NCBI GenBank assembly: GCA_001465025.1 | Contig: LNDO01000108.1 | Location: 1-46,479, forward strand | Direction: 5' to 3' | Length of the DNA: 46,479 nucleotides | Source: Pseudomonas sp. Ga0074129 | GTDB lineage: Bacteria > Pseudomonadota > Gammaproteobacteria > Pseudomonadales > Pseudomonadaceae | Shown: positions 9,501 to 42,046 of the stretch, one piece after another | How the letters are laid out: each line of letters starts with the position of its first letter | Numbering within the stretch: the stretch's first letter is position 1 | The notes under the pieces: generated by a model | The model's input: only the letters and a program-made list of their open reading frames with translations | What the model was told of the DNA's origin: nothing | The model's database searches: none | Made by a program: the position numbers and the translations under genes

Positions 9501-9770
9501 TTAGCGACGCAGACCCAGGCGACCGATCAGGGCGCTGTAACGACTAACATCCTTGCCCTTCAGGTAATCCAGCAGCTTACGACGCTGGTTAACCATACGG
9601 ATCAGGCCACGACGCGAGTGGTGATCTTTACCGTTGGCCTTGAAGTGGCCTTGCAGCTTGTTGATGTTGGCGGACAGCAGTGCAACTTGCACTTCCGGGC
9701 TACCGGTGTCGCCAGCAGCTTGCTGGTAGTCAGTTACGATTTGGGCTTTTTCTTCAACGCTGAGTGCCAT
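9501..9770 (-). CDS. rpsO: 30S ribosomal protein S15
   Basis: The 89-aa ribosomal protein S15, which binds the 16S rRNA three-way junction and bridges the subunits. The family length is exact, and the conserved [18 protein letters not shown] and RRKLLDYLK segments are present. The ATG follows a GAGAGGA box. A structured leader precedes it (separate entry), consistent with the known autoregulation of S15 in other bacteria. Promoter-proximal to pnp. Confidence 0.98.
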
Positions 9771-9833
9771 GGGGCAATCCTCTCAGTTAGGCAACTGCCG
9801 AAACAGTCGCAATAGGCCGGGAATCGCTTCCCG
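9771..9833 (-). promoter_or_regulatory. Structured rpsO leader (candidate S15 autoregulatory element)
   Basis: Upstream of the rpsO ATG the minus strand can form two stacked hairpins. One is CGGGAA/TTCCCG around a four-base loop (9818-9833). The other is a 7-bp stem GCGACTG/CAGTTGC containing a G-U pair (9791-9810), immediately 5' of the Shine-Dalgarno box at 9778-9784. S15 leaders in several bacteria use a G-U/G-C motif or a three-way-junction mimic close to the ribosome site. The fold is seen; binding by S15 is inference. Confidence 0.45.
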
Positions 9834-11412: not shown

Positions 11413-13908
11413 TTACAGGCTACGGGCCACTTGGACTTTCTCGAACACTTCGATTTTGTCGCCGACCTTGACGTCGTTGTAGCTCTTCACGCCGATACCG
11501 CACTCCATGCCATTACGCACTTCGGAGGCATCGTCTTTAAAGCGACGCAGGGATTCCAGCTCGCCTTCGAAGATCACCACGTCGTCGCGCAGTACGCGGA
11601 TCGGACGGTTACGGTAAACCGTACCTTCAACCACCATACAACCGGCAATGGCACCAAACTTCGGCGAACGGAACACGTCACGCACCTCAGCGATACCCAG
11701 GATGTTCTCGCGAACATCACTGCCGAGCATGCCGGTCAGCGCTTTCTTCACGTCTTCGATGATGTCGTAGATCACGTTGTAGTAACGCATATCCAGACCT
11801 TCCTGCTCGACGATCTTGCGCGCACCGGCATCGGCACGCACGTTGAAGCCGAACAGTACAGCGTTGGAGGCCAGCGCCAGGTTAGCATCGGATTCGGTGA
11901 TACCACCGACACCGCCGCCGACCACACGCACTTGCACTTCATCGTTACCCAGGCCGCTGAGCGAGCCTTGCAGCGCTTCCAGAGAACCACGGACGTCGGA
12001 TTTGAGGACGATGTTGAGCGTCTTTTTCTCTTCCTGACCCATGTTCTCGAAGATATTTTCCAGCTTGCCGGCGTGAGCACGGGCCAGCTTAACTTCACGG
12101 AACTTGCCTTGGCGGAACAGTGCGACTTCGCGGGCTTTCTTCTCGTCAGCCAATACGCTCATGTCATCGCCAGCATCCGGCGTGCCGTCCAGGCCAAGAA
12201 TCTCGACCGGAATCGACGGACCAGCTTCTTTGATTGGCTTGCCATTCTCGTCGAGCATGGCGCGGATACGACCGAAGTTGGAACCGATCAGCACCATATC
12301 GCCTTGACGCAGCGTACCGTCCTGAACCAATACGGTGGCAACCGGACCGCGACCTTTATCAAGGCGCGACTCGACCACAACACCACGACCTGGGGCCGAT
12401 GGCGTGGCTTTCAGCTCAAGAATCTCGGCCTGCAGCAGTACAGCTTCAAGCAGCTCGTCAACACCAGTACCGACCTTGGCCGAGACAGAAACGAACGGCG
12501 TATCACCGCCCCACTCTTCCGACGTCACGCCATGCACGGACAACTCGCTGCGAATGCGGTCGAGGTCAGCGCCAGGCTTGTCGATCTTATTCACTGCCAC
12601 TACCAGCGGAACACCGGCGGCCTTGGCGTGCTGAACGGCTTCAATGGTCTGCGGCATCACGCCGTCGTCCGCTGCAACCACCAGGATCACAATATCTGTC
12701 GCCTTGGCACCACGGGCACGCATCGCGGTGAACGCGGCGTGGCCCGGGGTATCAAGGAAGGTGACCATGCCGCGCTCGGTTTCTACGTGGTAGGCACCGA
12801 TATGCTGGGTAATACCACCGGCTTCGCCAGCAGCTACCTTGGCGCGACGAATATAGTCGAGCAGCGAGGTTTTACCGTGGTCAACGTGACCCATGACCGT
12901 CACAACCGGCGCACGGGAGAAGGTCTCACCTTCGAATTTCAAAGACTCAGCCAAAGAATCTTCCAAGGCCGTGTCGCTGACCAGGATGACTTTGTGGCCC
13001 AGTTCTTCAGCAACCAGCTGGGCAGTTTCCTGATCCAGGACCTGGTTAATGGTCGCCGGAGTACCCAGTTTGAACATGAACTTGATGATTTCAGCGGCTT
13101 TAACCGACATCTGCTGAGCAAGATCGCCCACAGTGATGGTTTCGCCGATCTTCACTTCACGCACGATTGGACCGGTCGGGCTCTGGAAGCCATGGGCATT
13201 ACGCTTCTTCAGCTTGCCCTTGCCACGACCACCGCGACGGAAGCTGTCGCTTTCTTCGTCAATAGAGCGTGGTGCAACACGTGGCGCCGGGGCTTTTTCC
13301 TTAACGCTCGGACGATGCTGGGTGGTCTTACGATCACCACCACGACGCTCGGCATCATCGTTGCGTGCTTTATCTGGGCGGCGCGGCTCTTCCTTCTTGC
13401 GCTCCTCAACCACTGCAGCAACAACAGGCAACTCAACAGCTACTGCTGCAACCGGCGCTTCTGCTGCGGGTGCTTCAGGCTGAGCAGGAGCTGAAGCCGC
13501 GCGTTGCGGTTCAGCAACCGCACGCTGCTTGGCTTCTTCTTCAGCTTTCAAGCGAGCGGCTTCGGCAGCTGCGCGATGCTCTGCGAGCTCACGCTGCTTC
13601 TCGGCTTCAATTTCTTCGGCGCTGCGTTTAACGAAGGTTTTCTTCTTACGTACCTCAACGCTGATGGTCTTGCTACCGGCAGCACGAAGGGTGCTAGTGG
13701 TTTTGCGCTGCAAGGTAATCTTACGCGGCTCTTCCACTTTGTCGCCGTGGCTGCTTTTGAGATAAGCCAACAGGGCTTGCTTCTCACTGTCGGTCACCGC
13801 TTGCTCGGCACTTTTGTGCGGCAAACCTGCCTCACTCATTTGCTGCAGCAGGCGTTCAACCGGCGTATTGACCACTTGGGCCAGTTCTTTAACCGTGACT
13901 TGCGTCAT
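11413..13908 (-). CDS. infB: Translation initiation factor IF-2
   Basis: An 831-aa GTPase that brings fMet-tRNA to the 30S subunit and promotes subunit joining. It has an N-terminal IF2_N domain (1-50), a long charged Ala/Glu/Lys linker (about 95-235), a second IF2_N domain (about 250-305), then the G domain with GHVDHGKT at 340-347, DTPGH at 386-390 and NKID at 440-443, followed by domains II-IV. Length is usual for Pseudomonas. It lies 27 bases after nusA, in the conserved rimP-nusA-infB operon. No internal second start for a shorter IF2 form stands out. Confidence 0.98.
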
Positions 13909-13935: not shown

Positions 13936-15417
13936 TTACTCGAACCAATGGGCTCGGGCGGCCATGATCAACTTGCCGGCTCGCTCAGCGTCGATACCGT
14001 CGATGTCGAGCAGGTCATCAATCGACTGCTCGGCCAGGTCTTCGCGGTTAACAACGCCGCGCACTGCCAGTTCATGCGCAAGCGCCTTATCCATCCCCTC
14101 TAGCGAGAGCAAGTCTTCGGCTGGGTGGGCATCTGCCAGCTTTTCCTCGTTGGCAATGGCTTTGGTCAGCAAGCGATCTTTGGCGCGAGCGCGAAGCTCG
14201 TTGACGATTTCCTCGTCAAAACCATTGATGCTGAGCATCTCTTCCATCGGTACGTAGGCAATTTCTTCAAGGCTGGTGAAGCCCTCTTCGACCAACACCT
14301 GAGCAAGCTCTTCATCGACTTCAAGATCGTCAATAAAGCGCTGCAGGATGTCGCCTGTTTCAGCCTGTTGCTTGGCTTGAATATCCGCTTCAGTCATGAC
14401 GTTTAGCGTCCAACCAGTCAACTGACTGGCCAAGCGCACGTTCTGACCGCCACGACCAATGGCCTGAGCAAGGTTGTCAGCGGCAACGGCGATATCCATG
14501 GCATGGGCATCTTCGTCGACGATAATGGCGGCGACTTCAGCAGGCGACATGGCATTGATGACGAACTGAGCAGGATTGTCATCCCACAGCACGATATCAA
14601 CACGCTCACCCGCCAGTTCACCGGAAACGGCTTGCACGCGCGAACCGCGCATGCCGATACAGGCACCTTGCGGGTCGATGCGCTTGTCTTTGGAACGCAC
14701 AGCCAACTTGGCGCGCGAACCCGGATCACGGGAAGCACCCATGACTTCAATCAGCTCTTCGGCAATTTCTGGCACTTCAATGCGGAACAGCTCAATCAAC
14801 ATCTCAGGCGCAGTACGCGAGAGGATAAGCTGCGGGCCGCGGTTCTCGGTGCGGATTTCCTTGAGCAGGGCGCGCAGACGCACACCGACACGGAAAGTCT
14901 CACGAGAGATAATGTCTTCGCGAGCCAACATGGCTTCTGCGTTGTTACCCAGGTCAACAATGACGCTGTCGCGGGTCACTTTTTTAACGGTGCCAGAGAT
15001 GATTTCGCCCAATCGCTCACGATAGGCTTCAACCACCTGGGCGCGTTCAGCTTCGCGAACTTTCTGGACAATCACCTGCTTGGCGGTTTGCGCAGCGATA
15101 CGGCCGAACTCGATGGACTCGATTTTCTCCTCGAGCACATCACCCACTTTTGCGTTGGCTTCGACGGCGCGCGGCATATCGGTCGTGACCTGGTGCGCAG
15201 GGTCATCGAAGTCCGCTTCTTCAACCACTGTCCAGCAGCGGAACGTCTCGTAGCTGCCTGTTTGACGATTAATCGCCACACGCAGTTCAACTTCGTCCTC
15301 AAAACGTTTTTTTGTTGCAGTCGCCAGAGCCAACTCCAACGCTTCAAAAATCACGCTGGCCGGAACGCCCTTTTCGTTGGACACCGACTCAACAACCAGC
15401 AGTACTTCTTTGCTCAT
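13936..15417 (-). CDS. nusA: Transcription termination/antitermination factor NusA
   Basis: A 493-aa RNA-polymerase-binding factor controlling pausing, termination and antitermination. It starts [17 protein letters not shown], with an N-terminal RNAP-binding domain, an S1 domain (about 135-200), two KH domains ([11 protein letters not shown] and [12 protein letters not shown]), and two C-terminal acidic repeats of the gammaproteobacterial type. I place the start at the ATG at 15417; an upstream open extension to 15489 is not supported. In enterics NusA represses its own operon through leader terminators, and such terminators are present here before rimP. Confidence 0.97.
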
Positions 15418-15485: not shown

Positions 15486-15947
15486 TCAATCAAACCTGGG
15501 GATAATGTTGGCCTTGTCGATCATTTCAATCGGCAACAGGAACTCGTGGTCATCCACCAGCACCACCACATCCTGTTCTTCTACACCGCGCAGAAGGCCC
15601 TGAAAGTTGCGTCGCCCTTCAAAAGGCGAGCGCAGCTTGATTTTTACTTGCTCACCGGCATGACTGGCGAACTGCTCAATCGTGAACAACGGCCGATCCA
15701 TACCTGGTGATGACACCTCAAGGGTGTACTCAGCAGTGATTGGATCCTCGACATCGAGGACACCGCTGATCTGCCGACTGACAATTTCGCAGTCTTCGAT
15801 AACAACGCCATCAGGCTGCTTATCAATATAAATTCGCAGCAAAGAATGCCGCCCTTGTGACAGGAACTCGACACCCCAGCATTGATAGCCAAGAGCCTCG
15901 ACTACCGGAGCCACCAAGGCCTGCAACTGTTCTAGCTTGCTCGACAC
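15486..15947 (-). CDS. rimP: Ribosome maturation factor RimP
   Basis: A 153-aa protein needed for early 30S assembly. It shows the [17 protein letters not shown] opening, [15 protein letters not shown] and the C-terminal Sm-like domain. The start is the GTG at 15947 (VSSKLEQLQ), after a GAGGGG box; the upstream open frame runs through the leader terminators and is not coding. First protein gene of the rimP-nusA-infB operon, 68 bases before nusA. Confidence 0.95.
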
Positions 15948-15969: not shown

Positions 15970-15997
15970 AAAAATAAAAAATGGGCGAATCGCCCAT
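15970..15997 (-). terminator. Intrinsic terminator in the rimP leader
   Basis: Read on the minus strand, ATGGGCG/CGCCCAT forms a perfect 7-bp stem followed by TTTTTTATTTTTA, a strong intrinsic terminator only about 23 bases before the rimP GTG. A terminator this close upstream of rimP points to attenuation. In enterics the same operon is controlled by NusA acting on leader terminators; that link here is inference. Confidence 0.8.
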
Positions 15998-16042
15998 CAT
16001 CAAACCGCCCTATAAAGGCCGGCAAAGCTGTCGTCCAGCTAG

Positions 16043-16065
16043 CAAAAAGCCCCTTTCAAGGGGCT
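16043..16065 (-). terminator. Terminator of the tRNA-like RNA
   Basis: The minus strand has AGCCCCTT/AAGGGGCT followed by TTTTTGCT, an intrinsic terminator 11 bases beyond the 3' end of the tRNA-like RNA. Together with the promoter at 16166-16195 it defines a short transcription unit of roughly 115 nt, with rimP downstream reached by read-through or another promoter. Confidence 0.82.
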
Positions 16066-16075
16066 CCTCTGCAAT

Positions 16076-16149
16076 TCAATGCGGGGGCTGGTTAACCCAG
16101 CCAGCGTCGGGGTTTAATCCGAGGAGCGACTTTACTGCTCAATCCCACA
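16076..16149 (-). ncRNA. tRNA-shaped RNA derived from initiator tRNA-fMet (metY position)
   Basis: The minus strand aligns along its whole length with bacterial initiator tRNA. Acceptor: TGTGGGA with CCCCGCA (6 of 7 pairs). D stem: GAGC/GCTC with a 9-base loop. Anticodon arm: TCGGA...CCCGA, one base short. Variable region: five bases. T stem: GCTGG/CCAGC, perfect. The 3' arm CCCCGCA equals that of tRNA-fMet. Missing are the CAU anticodon (loop TTAAAC), the D-loop GG, the T-loop TTC (loop only GTTAA) and the CCA end (TTGA instead). It lies between tRNA-Leu and rimP, where E. coli has metY. It cannot serve as a normal tRNA. It is either a decaying gene or a retained tRNA-like leader or small RNA. 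The structure is seen; the function is unknown. Confidence 0.65.
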
Positions 16150-16165
16150 TCAAAGCTGGGGCCGG

Positions 16166-16195
16166 ATTATACGACCGAACCTCATCCAGGGTCAA
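16166..16195 (-). promoter_or_regulatory. Strong sigma-70 promoter with GC-rich discriminator
   Basis: On the minus strand, TTGACC (16195-16190), an 18-base spacer and a perfect TATAAT (16171-16166) are followed by CCGGCCCC. The GC-rich discriminator is typical of stable-RNA promoters under stringent control. It drives the tRNA-like RNA, whose 5' end lies about 10 bases past the expected start site, and possibly rimP-nusA-infB by read-through. Confidence 0.85.
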
Positions 16196-16246: not shown

Positions 16247-16332
16247 TGGTACCGAGGAGGGGACTCGAACCCCTACAGCCTATGGCCACTACCACCTCAA
16301 GGTAGCGTGTCTACCAATTCCACCACCTCGGC
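16247..16332 (-). tRNA. tRNA-Leu (anticodon GAG)
   Basis: An 86-nt class II tRNA on the minus strand. The acceptor stem is GCCGAGG/CCTCGGT, the anticodon arm CTACC-TTGAGGT-GGTAG puts GAG in the loop, and there is a long variable arm. The T-arm is GGGGTTCGAGTCCCC, and the CCA end is encoded. It reads CUC/CUU leucine codons. It lies 31 bases after secG, as leuU does in E. coli, so it is probably cut from the secG transcript. Confidence 0.97.
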
Positions 16333-41801: not shown

Positions 41802-41839
41802 ATCAACGCTTGCCCCAGAGTTGCTGCGCGGGCAGAATG

Positions 41840-42046
41840 CGCCCGTCCTAGGGGAGTAGTCTCCCGCGAGCGCCAGCTCGCCCGGCACGCGTCAACATAC
41901 TTGCTCAGCAGAGCATGGTGCGTGCGACCCAAGGCCCACACAGTTGTGGCCTGCGGTTTGACAAGACCTATGACACGCACACCTTACCCGGGGCGGGGAG
42001 GCTGTACGTGTCATAGCCATGTCGACCTGCCCCGTTAGGAAACCTA
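41840..42046 (+). promoter_or_regulatory. yybP-ykoY manganese riboswitch
   Basis: The leader of the GDT1-family gene holds the yybP-ykoY aptamer hallmarks: GGGGAGTAG (41851-41859, loop L1) and CAAGACC (41962-41968, loop L3). A 7-bp helix GTGCGTG (41918-41924) with CACGCAC (41974-41980) encloses the L3 side. A side hairpin, GGCCCACA-CAGT-TGTGGCC, lies at about 41933-41951. A perfect 10-bp competing pair, 41968-41977 with 42007-42016, excludes the aptamer helix. Near the start codon, TAGG/CCTA (42036-42039 / 42043-42046) can fold over the ribosome site. Known yybP-ykoY members turn on Mn exporters; the gene below fits. Aptamer call strong; the switching scheme is inferred. Confidence 0.88.

Follow-up and report, generated by a model that had tools for sequence, protein, structure and literature searches.

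A degenerate tRNA-fMet gene upstream of rimP-nusA-infB in Pseudomonas and its putative retention as a structured part of the operon leader

The window analysed here is the whole stretch of 46,479 nucleotides of contig LNDO01000108.1 from Pseudomonas sp. Ga0074129. Its minus strand carries a tRNA-Leu(GAG) gene, a promoter, a degenerate tRNA-like body, two terminators and the genes rimP, nusA and infB (Table 1), and Pfam searches confirmed SecG, RimP, NusA and IF2 in the window. An initial annotation, made from the letters alone, had described a promoter, a tRNA-like cloverleaf lacking the CAU anticodon and CCA, and a terminator at this place; the arrangement was confirmed on the minus strand between 16042 and 16195. 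The promoter is the sole match to TTGACC-18-TATAAT in the window when one mismatch is allowed (0.01 expected), and a simple scan found no further promoter-like site between it and position 15529. The covariance model R1, which has the window sequence among its building set, scored 125.1 bits over the predicted short RNA. The second terminator, T2, consists of a GGGC...GCCC hairpin and a T run shortly upstream of rimP and hence agrees with the motif of the rimP-leader attenuator; the Rfam match to RF01770 that overlaps it reached 19.8 bits, below the gathering threshold of 47 bits.

Table 1. Features of the locus and other RNA matches in the window
Feature	Position	Strand	Evidence and remarks
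tRNA-Leu(GAG), intact upstream neighbour	16247..16332	-	ARAGORN; Rfam RF00005, 53.2 bits
Terminator-like hairpin after tRNA-Leu(GAG)	~16229-16209	-	By eye
Promoter TTGACC-18-TATAAT	16166..16195	-	Followed by GC-rich CCGGCCCC; TTGACC in 46/46 parsed relic loci
Predicted whole short RNA, leader to T1 end	16042..16158	-	Basal stem 16154-16144 x 16085-16075
Degenerate tRNA-fMet body, four-helix junction	16078..16150 (approx.)	-	Alignment to intact relatives; fold; comparison with intact tRNA-fMet
Terminator T1 hairpin	16042..16072	-	Core GCCCCTTGAAAGGGGC at 16064-16049, T run to 16044; kept in 46/46 parsed relic loci
Terminator T2, GATGGGCGATTCGCCCATTTTTT	15976..15998	-	Matches published rimP-leader motif GGGc...gCCC (PMC2965389)
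rimP, GTG start at 15947	15486..15947	-	Pfam RimP_N, 103.6 bits; start conserved in relatives
nusA	13936..15417	-	Pfam NusA_N, 123.4 bits
infB (IF2)	11413..13908	-	Pfam IF-2, 135.6 bits
Pseudomonas sRNA P31	28272-28349	+	Rfam, 62.5 bits
yybP-ykoY manganese riboswitch	41839-41971	+	Rfam, 48.7 bits
Ribosomal S15 leader	9714-9814	-	Rfam, 51.8 bits

The body is not recognised as a tRNA. At this locus ARAGORN called only the tRNA-Leu(GAG) gene, and Rfam listed no tRNA match to the body even at E-values up to 5 and no other family for it, in agreement with the loss of tRNA identity first proposed. The body is without a CAU anticodon in a 7-nt loop, without a 7-nt TTC-type T loop and without CCA. Among the 25 same-genus loci fetched first, 21 have a tRNA-Met(CAT) called by ARAGORN at the same place, and the position between tRNA-Leu(GAG) and rimP is common to the relic and to intact tRNA-fMet genes. 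Descent from tRNA-fMet follows from this synteny with intact orthologues, and judged by sequence and position the body represents what was once a tRNA-fMet gene in the metY place, as the metY-like placement before rimP-nusA-infB had suggested. The window differs from the intact tRNA-fMet by 22 substitutions, of which 4 lie in the 42 stem positions among 77 (binomial P 0.0005); for L043, the most basal member of the window's clade, the figure is 3 of 20 (P 0.0003). The T stem, previously thought to have changed, is nearly ancestral: that of intact near relatives is GTTGG/CCAGC, and the GCTGG/CCAGC of the window lies one U.G to C-G step away. The D-loop GG is indeed absent from the window, whereas AAGG is still present in many sisters. 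The anticodon stem of the window has an A x C mismatch and 4 pairs, which makes it weaker than that of most sisters, and the anticodon loop varies within the clade.

An assembly or sequencing error, an explanation named at the outset, was ruled out because the clade has 18 more distinct sequences with the relic. The genome itself holds three intact fMet genes, together on another contig, which answers the question of other copies in the affirmative and implies that the lost copy was redundant. A search of the same genome with R1 for a second copy of the relic RNA matched only the locus and these three genes. Similarly, in 11 chosen genomes R1 matched nothing beyond the locus and the sites of intact fMet genes; in G406 the locus was not matched by R1.

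The window's clade is the P. anguilliseptica / P. peli group, with P. peli (L077) and P. anguilliseptica (L079) as named members, and the loss extends well beyond it. A similarity search over 398 genomes of the genus, at E-values up to 1e-40, recovered the locus in 397, and 363 of the 398 matched a pattern, allowing up to 2 mismatches, for the intact tRNA-fMet of the locus type. The other 35 comprise 32 with a degenerate copy (G304 being borderline), one with an intact copy overlooked by the pattern (G126) and two in neither class, namely G089, a fragmented draft, and G236, at a contig end. ARAGORN still calls tRNA-Met in the degenerate copies of G304 and G106 and other tRNAs in those of G136, G193 and G293; the degenerate copy of G253 stands without a promoter at a contig end.

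Maximum-likelihood analysis of rimP and nusA from 89 loci, 44 of them relics, gave a tree with 10 maximal all-relic clades, several of which are nested among intact relatives, with support of only 87 to 93 at some of the nodes that separate them. Placement failed for relics L113, L115 and L116. The tree leaves out 12 loci without a parsable rimP/nusA flank, 4 without a parsable leader and L041, whose masked bases would distort it; L101, having no coding flank, stood outside the tree tests. The window's clade has support 100 and represents one loss. If loss is irreversible, the tree implies that the tRNA was lost at least 10 times in the genus. A copy-number account, in which loss follows the gain of extra fMet genes, was considered and rejected as a general explanation on the counts elsewhere in the genome, in which drafts undercount: 3 copies in 12 of 16 clade genomes; 2 (10 genomes), 3 (5), 1 (1) or 0 (1) in 17 intact neighbours; and 0 to 4 in 22 genomes of other relic lineages. 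In L034 (G031), an order-level relative, 14 tRNA-fMet matches were observed, mostly in tandem arrays with a spacing of about 126 bases.

The promoter and T1 have outlived the tRNA. Both TTGACC and T1 are kept in 46 of 46 parsed relic loci, and 45 have a -10 box of TATAAT (28) or TATACT (17) at a spacing of 17 or 18; these loci are non-independent and were found by whole-region similarity, so that total loss would escape, yet 397 of the 398 genomes were matched. The remaining locus, L122, has kept TTGACC and T1 with TATCCT as its -10 box. Persistence does not depend on the size of the body: between leader and T1 there are 90 nt in an intact relative, 55 in L121 and 59 in L122, and promoter and T1 persist in both. 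Survival of these two elements through at least 10 losses suggests that they serve something other than the tRNA and would seem to serve the operon, rimP-nusA-infB being the sole downstream candidate. To this extent, and in outline only, the leader RNA first proposed stands.

The rearranged genome G686 lends further support. Here a distance of 168 kb on one contig separates the relic from secG and the intact tRNA-Leu, which have integrase ORFs beside them, whereas a 3' scrap of tRNA-Leu followed by the whole promoter-relic-T1-T2-rimP segment stands behind a glycosyltransferase gene; the break is inside tRNA-Leu and the original sequence upstream of the relic promoter has been replaced. That the segment was kept together supports the service of promoter and T1 to the operon. 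On these comparisons the role of the promoter and terminators is well supported. As a separate observation, two phage-integrase-domain ORFs (Pfam) lie at the 3' end of the intact tRNA-Leu(GAG) of G686 (L132, L142), and this tRNA-Leu(GAG), the neighbour of the relic, looks from its surroundings like a mobile-element site.

Whether the body itself has been kept is a different matter, and the chief rival to a role for it is a plain tRNA pseudogene, in which only the promoter and terminators are selected and the body drifts, looking folded on account of its strong ancestral stems. Redundancy with the other fMet copies and the partly broken anticodon stem of the window favour this account. Evolutionary rates point both ways. 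Over 17 clade sequences the mean pairwise difference is 0.123 for the body, less than half of the 0.289 at 4-fold sites and the 0.272 in the promoter spacer, which argues against free drift; the values are 0.054 for the trailer and 0.027 for T1, and 11 intact relatives have 0.002 for the body. Slowness is not peculiar to the body, however, since the clade values for the T1-T2 spacer (0.096) and for the terminator of tRNA-Leu (0.093) are just as low, as a pseudogene would have it; either the whole leader is constrained, or the 4-fold sites overstate the neutral rate. Parsimony on 17 tips, without L133, gave 0.62 changes per site in stems (32/52), 1.37 in loops (48/35) and 2.67 at 4-fold sites (583/218). 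The T1-T2 segment at 15999-16041 differs on average by 0.096 in the clade against 0.276 in intact relatives, and it repeats CAGCTTTG, which is present also at the start of the relic RNA.

Folding and pairing were assessed in the window's clade. The sequence at 16078-16151 folds better than shuffled versions of itself (z -3.97, 0/200), compared with z -1.32 for the tRNA-fMet of an intact relative, -3.53 for L043 and the modest values of -2.06 for L131 and -1.71 for L133. RNAalifold predicted 40 pairs from 19 sequences, and slid registers pair at 34 to 59%. Against column shuffles the clear result is that 4 pairs changed on both sides compared with 1.3 in shuffles (0/500 reach the observed value). 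The other four of the five measures are weak: 98.0% of cells paired against 97.6% (17/500), 5 cells with both sides changed against 2.7 (32/500), 17 further pair types against 16.2 (148/500) and a covariation score of 0.082 against 0.076 (45/500).

A tree-based null, run with a fixed transition share of 0.65 on a single tree, gave P 0.003 to 0.01 on the RNAalifold structure. To avoid circularity, the test was also started from the cloverleaf of the ancestor together with its known sequence; 92.0% of the ancestral pairs are kept where the null expects 81.0% (P 0.007), or 93.6 against 84.6% without the long-branch L133 (P 0.02). When pairs 1:72 and 7:66 are left out as well, a post hoc exclusion made after their remodelling was noticed, the values are 98.1 and 88.5% (P 0.0004). 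By helix, the T stem (P 0.012) and the anticodon stem (P 0.027) kept more pairs than the tree null, while the D (P 0.27) and acceptor (P 0.48) stems did not differ significantly from it. The selection on structure that had been suspected finds support in the window's clade, as far as retention of pairs beyond a tree-based null can tell, and this retention speaks against a drifting pseudogene; it is for this clade alone that comparison makes it probable that the body has a role.

The acceptor stem has been rebuilt as well as retained, a feature absent from the initial annotation. In the window's clade U-A has replaced the ancestral C1.A72 mismatch, and in place of the ACCA end there is UUGA, paired with what was the 5' leader. 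The basal stem thus formed reaches into both leader and trailer; it counts 11 pairs in the window, and sisters have as many as 14, interrupted by one bulge. It is extended in 18 of 19 sequences (5/5 added pairs), which again counts against a pseudogene, and in L043 by another register with a bulged A. Extensions of this kind are gains that would not be expected from decay alone, although five extra wobble-allowed pairs are not in themselves rare.

Loss of 1 or 2 nt from the T loop was observed repeatedly in independent relics, e.g. L052, L058, L107, L111, L114 and L115, and its shortening is the only indel found in L052, L058, L060, L061 and L115; L133 is predicted to have a T loop of only 3 nt on a retained T stem. 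In a tally made by hand over few-indel lineages, with related B lineages counted once and the rearranged relics L057, L024, L119, L113, L116, L117, L118, L121 and L133 omitted, 8 of 15 small indel events fell in the T loop, which occupies 7 of 77 positions (P 1.7e-5, or P 0.004 if only loops are changeable). Either a mutational bias or selection that dismantles the tRNA but preserves its hairpins could account for this.

Other relic lineages restrict how far a role for the fold can be generalised. In L113, L114, L115, L116, L117, L118 and L121 pairs are kept at chance level only (P 0.43 to 1.0), and no excess pairing was found in clade C2 and L107. Stem decay without pairing in relatives, which the initial annotation had regarded as the mark of a plain pseudogene, therefore applies to L113-L118 and L121, whereas the window's clade does not show it; a folded body is thus not needed everywhere, and these relics, together with the 35 and 31 nt fewer between leader and T1 in L121 and L122 than in an intact relative, count in favour of a pseudogene. 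Clade C1 is, on the same pairing test, a second case of kept pairing: L004 keeps 20 of 21 pairs with 8 stem changes (P 0.003), L074 19 of 21 with 10 (P 0.011) and L075 19 of 21 with 9 (P 0.012), the three members being relatives and not independent. Taking both sides together, we consider a plain pseudogene in the window's clade a serious contender, though a doubtful one.

A further rival is a small RNA acting in trans, some 115 nt long and derived from the old tRNA gene, which would end at T1 and pair with other mRNAs. Its own promoter and terminator, its single copy per genome tested and its conservation in the clade fit such an RNA, and there is a precedent in the pseudo-tRNA within a regulatory RNA of Bacillus cereus (PMC3399842). 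The loops, however, which would be the likely seeds, change faster than the stems, and the relic invariably lies before rimP, so that we regard this as improbable. That the body still works as an unusual tRNA, or binds a tRNA enzyme as a mimic, is very improbable, the kept four-helix shape and the ARAGORN call of tRNA-Asn(GTT) in L043 being outweighed by the missing CCA, the anticodon loop that varies in the clade, the shortened T loop, the extended acceptor stem and the failure of any tRNA match to be listed at E-values up to 5. With the CCA end and the 7-nt T loop gone and the acceptor stem extended, action of RNase P or of the CCA-adding enzyme is less to be expected, and the earlier idea of a mimic for a processing enzyme finds no support.

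The reading that we prefer, with a probability of slightly more than one half (about 0.53), is that a dead tRNA-fMet at the metY position has been kept as a structured part of an attenuated rimP leader. Transcription would start near 16158 from the relic promoter, and the nascent RNA would fold the relic as a stable first leader domain. The promoter would drive rimP-nusA-infB through the tandem terminators T1 and T2, at either of which transcription would end unless readthrough occurs, and the balance of termination and readthrough, of which NusA is the suspected regulator, would set the output of the operon. The three other fMet genes would carry the tRNA function. The relic fold may keep the nascent RNA folded, protect its 5' end or block pairing of AGCCCC with the 3' arm of T1; a search for antiterminators indicated that GGGGCT of this arm can pair with the relic AGCCCC at 16089 or with its own 5' arm, a pairing that we treat as a lead only, as intact tRNAs also carry the motif. 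We infer the transcription, the readthrough, the control by NusA and the role of the fold from the arrangement of the locus.

A bolder version, which we offer only tentatively, holds that what was a tRNA gene now encodes a regulatory leader RNA of the NusA/IF2 operon that is new and specific to the clade. Selection would maintain its four-helix fold, the rebuilt acceptor stem would link leader with trailer, and readthrough at T1 and T2 would be tuned by the folded domain; T-loop shortening would then be a shared early step and the genus would hold many stages of conversion.

These observations bear on the question of why a tRNA gene stands before nusA-infB: its product may be what matters, or else the promoter and leader that come with it. 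In Pseudomonas the tRNA has gone at least 10 times in nature while promoter and T1 stayed, which favours the second answer and provides ready-made comparisons for studying how NusA and IF2 levels are determined. In the window's clade a tRNA fold seems to have outlasted tRNA function, which gives an opportunity to follow the conversion of a tRNA gene. Among the literature matches listed (titles and abstract starts, with most subscription journals outside), none concerned a degenerate tRNA-fMet before rimP, which is weak evidence of absence.

Cited work on the leader of the E. coli metY-rimP-nusA-infB operon includes that of Kenri in 1992, and the tRNA is reportedly released by RNase III. In the accessible text of PMC6511841, E. 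coli has promoters upstream of metY, terminators t1 and t2 before rimP and a metY tRNA copy that is non-essential. The Pseudomonas locus resembles this leader in having a tRNA-fMet-type gene upstream of rimP, a promoter above it and two terminators before rimP (PMC6511841), and differs from it in that the tRNA is dead and that the simple scan found no P2-like promoter below the relic. The rimP leader as described in the available part of PMC2965389 contains a terminator with the GGGc...gCCC motif, has NusA as the suspected regulator and is accompanied in several Gammaproteobacteria by a second, upstream tandem terminator with the inverse motif. Our locus matches that attenuator (PMC2965389; RF01770) in the GGGC...GCCC hairpin and T run of T2 and in T1, whose CCCC...GGGG is the inverse motif; unlike it, the locus scores below the threshold of the RF01770 model and includes a tRNA relic, of which the passages on the attenuator give no description; the published text has 0 occurrences of metY (PMC2965389). 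The tRNA-Other of B. cereus, according to the accessible portion of its report, is a pseudo-tRNA in a regulatory RNA that flanks a genomic island and whose deletion alters many genes (PMC3399842). Both are tRNA-like elements without a role in translation inside a longer transcript, which is a predicted one here (PMC3399842); unlike tRNA-Other, the Pseudomonas relic is part of the leader of a core operon, and such relics arose many times.
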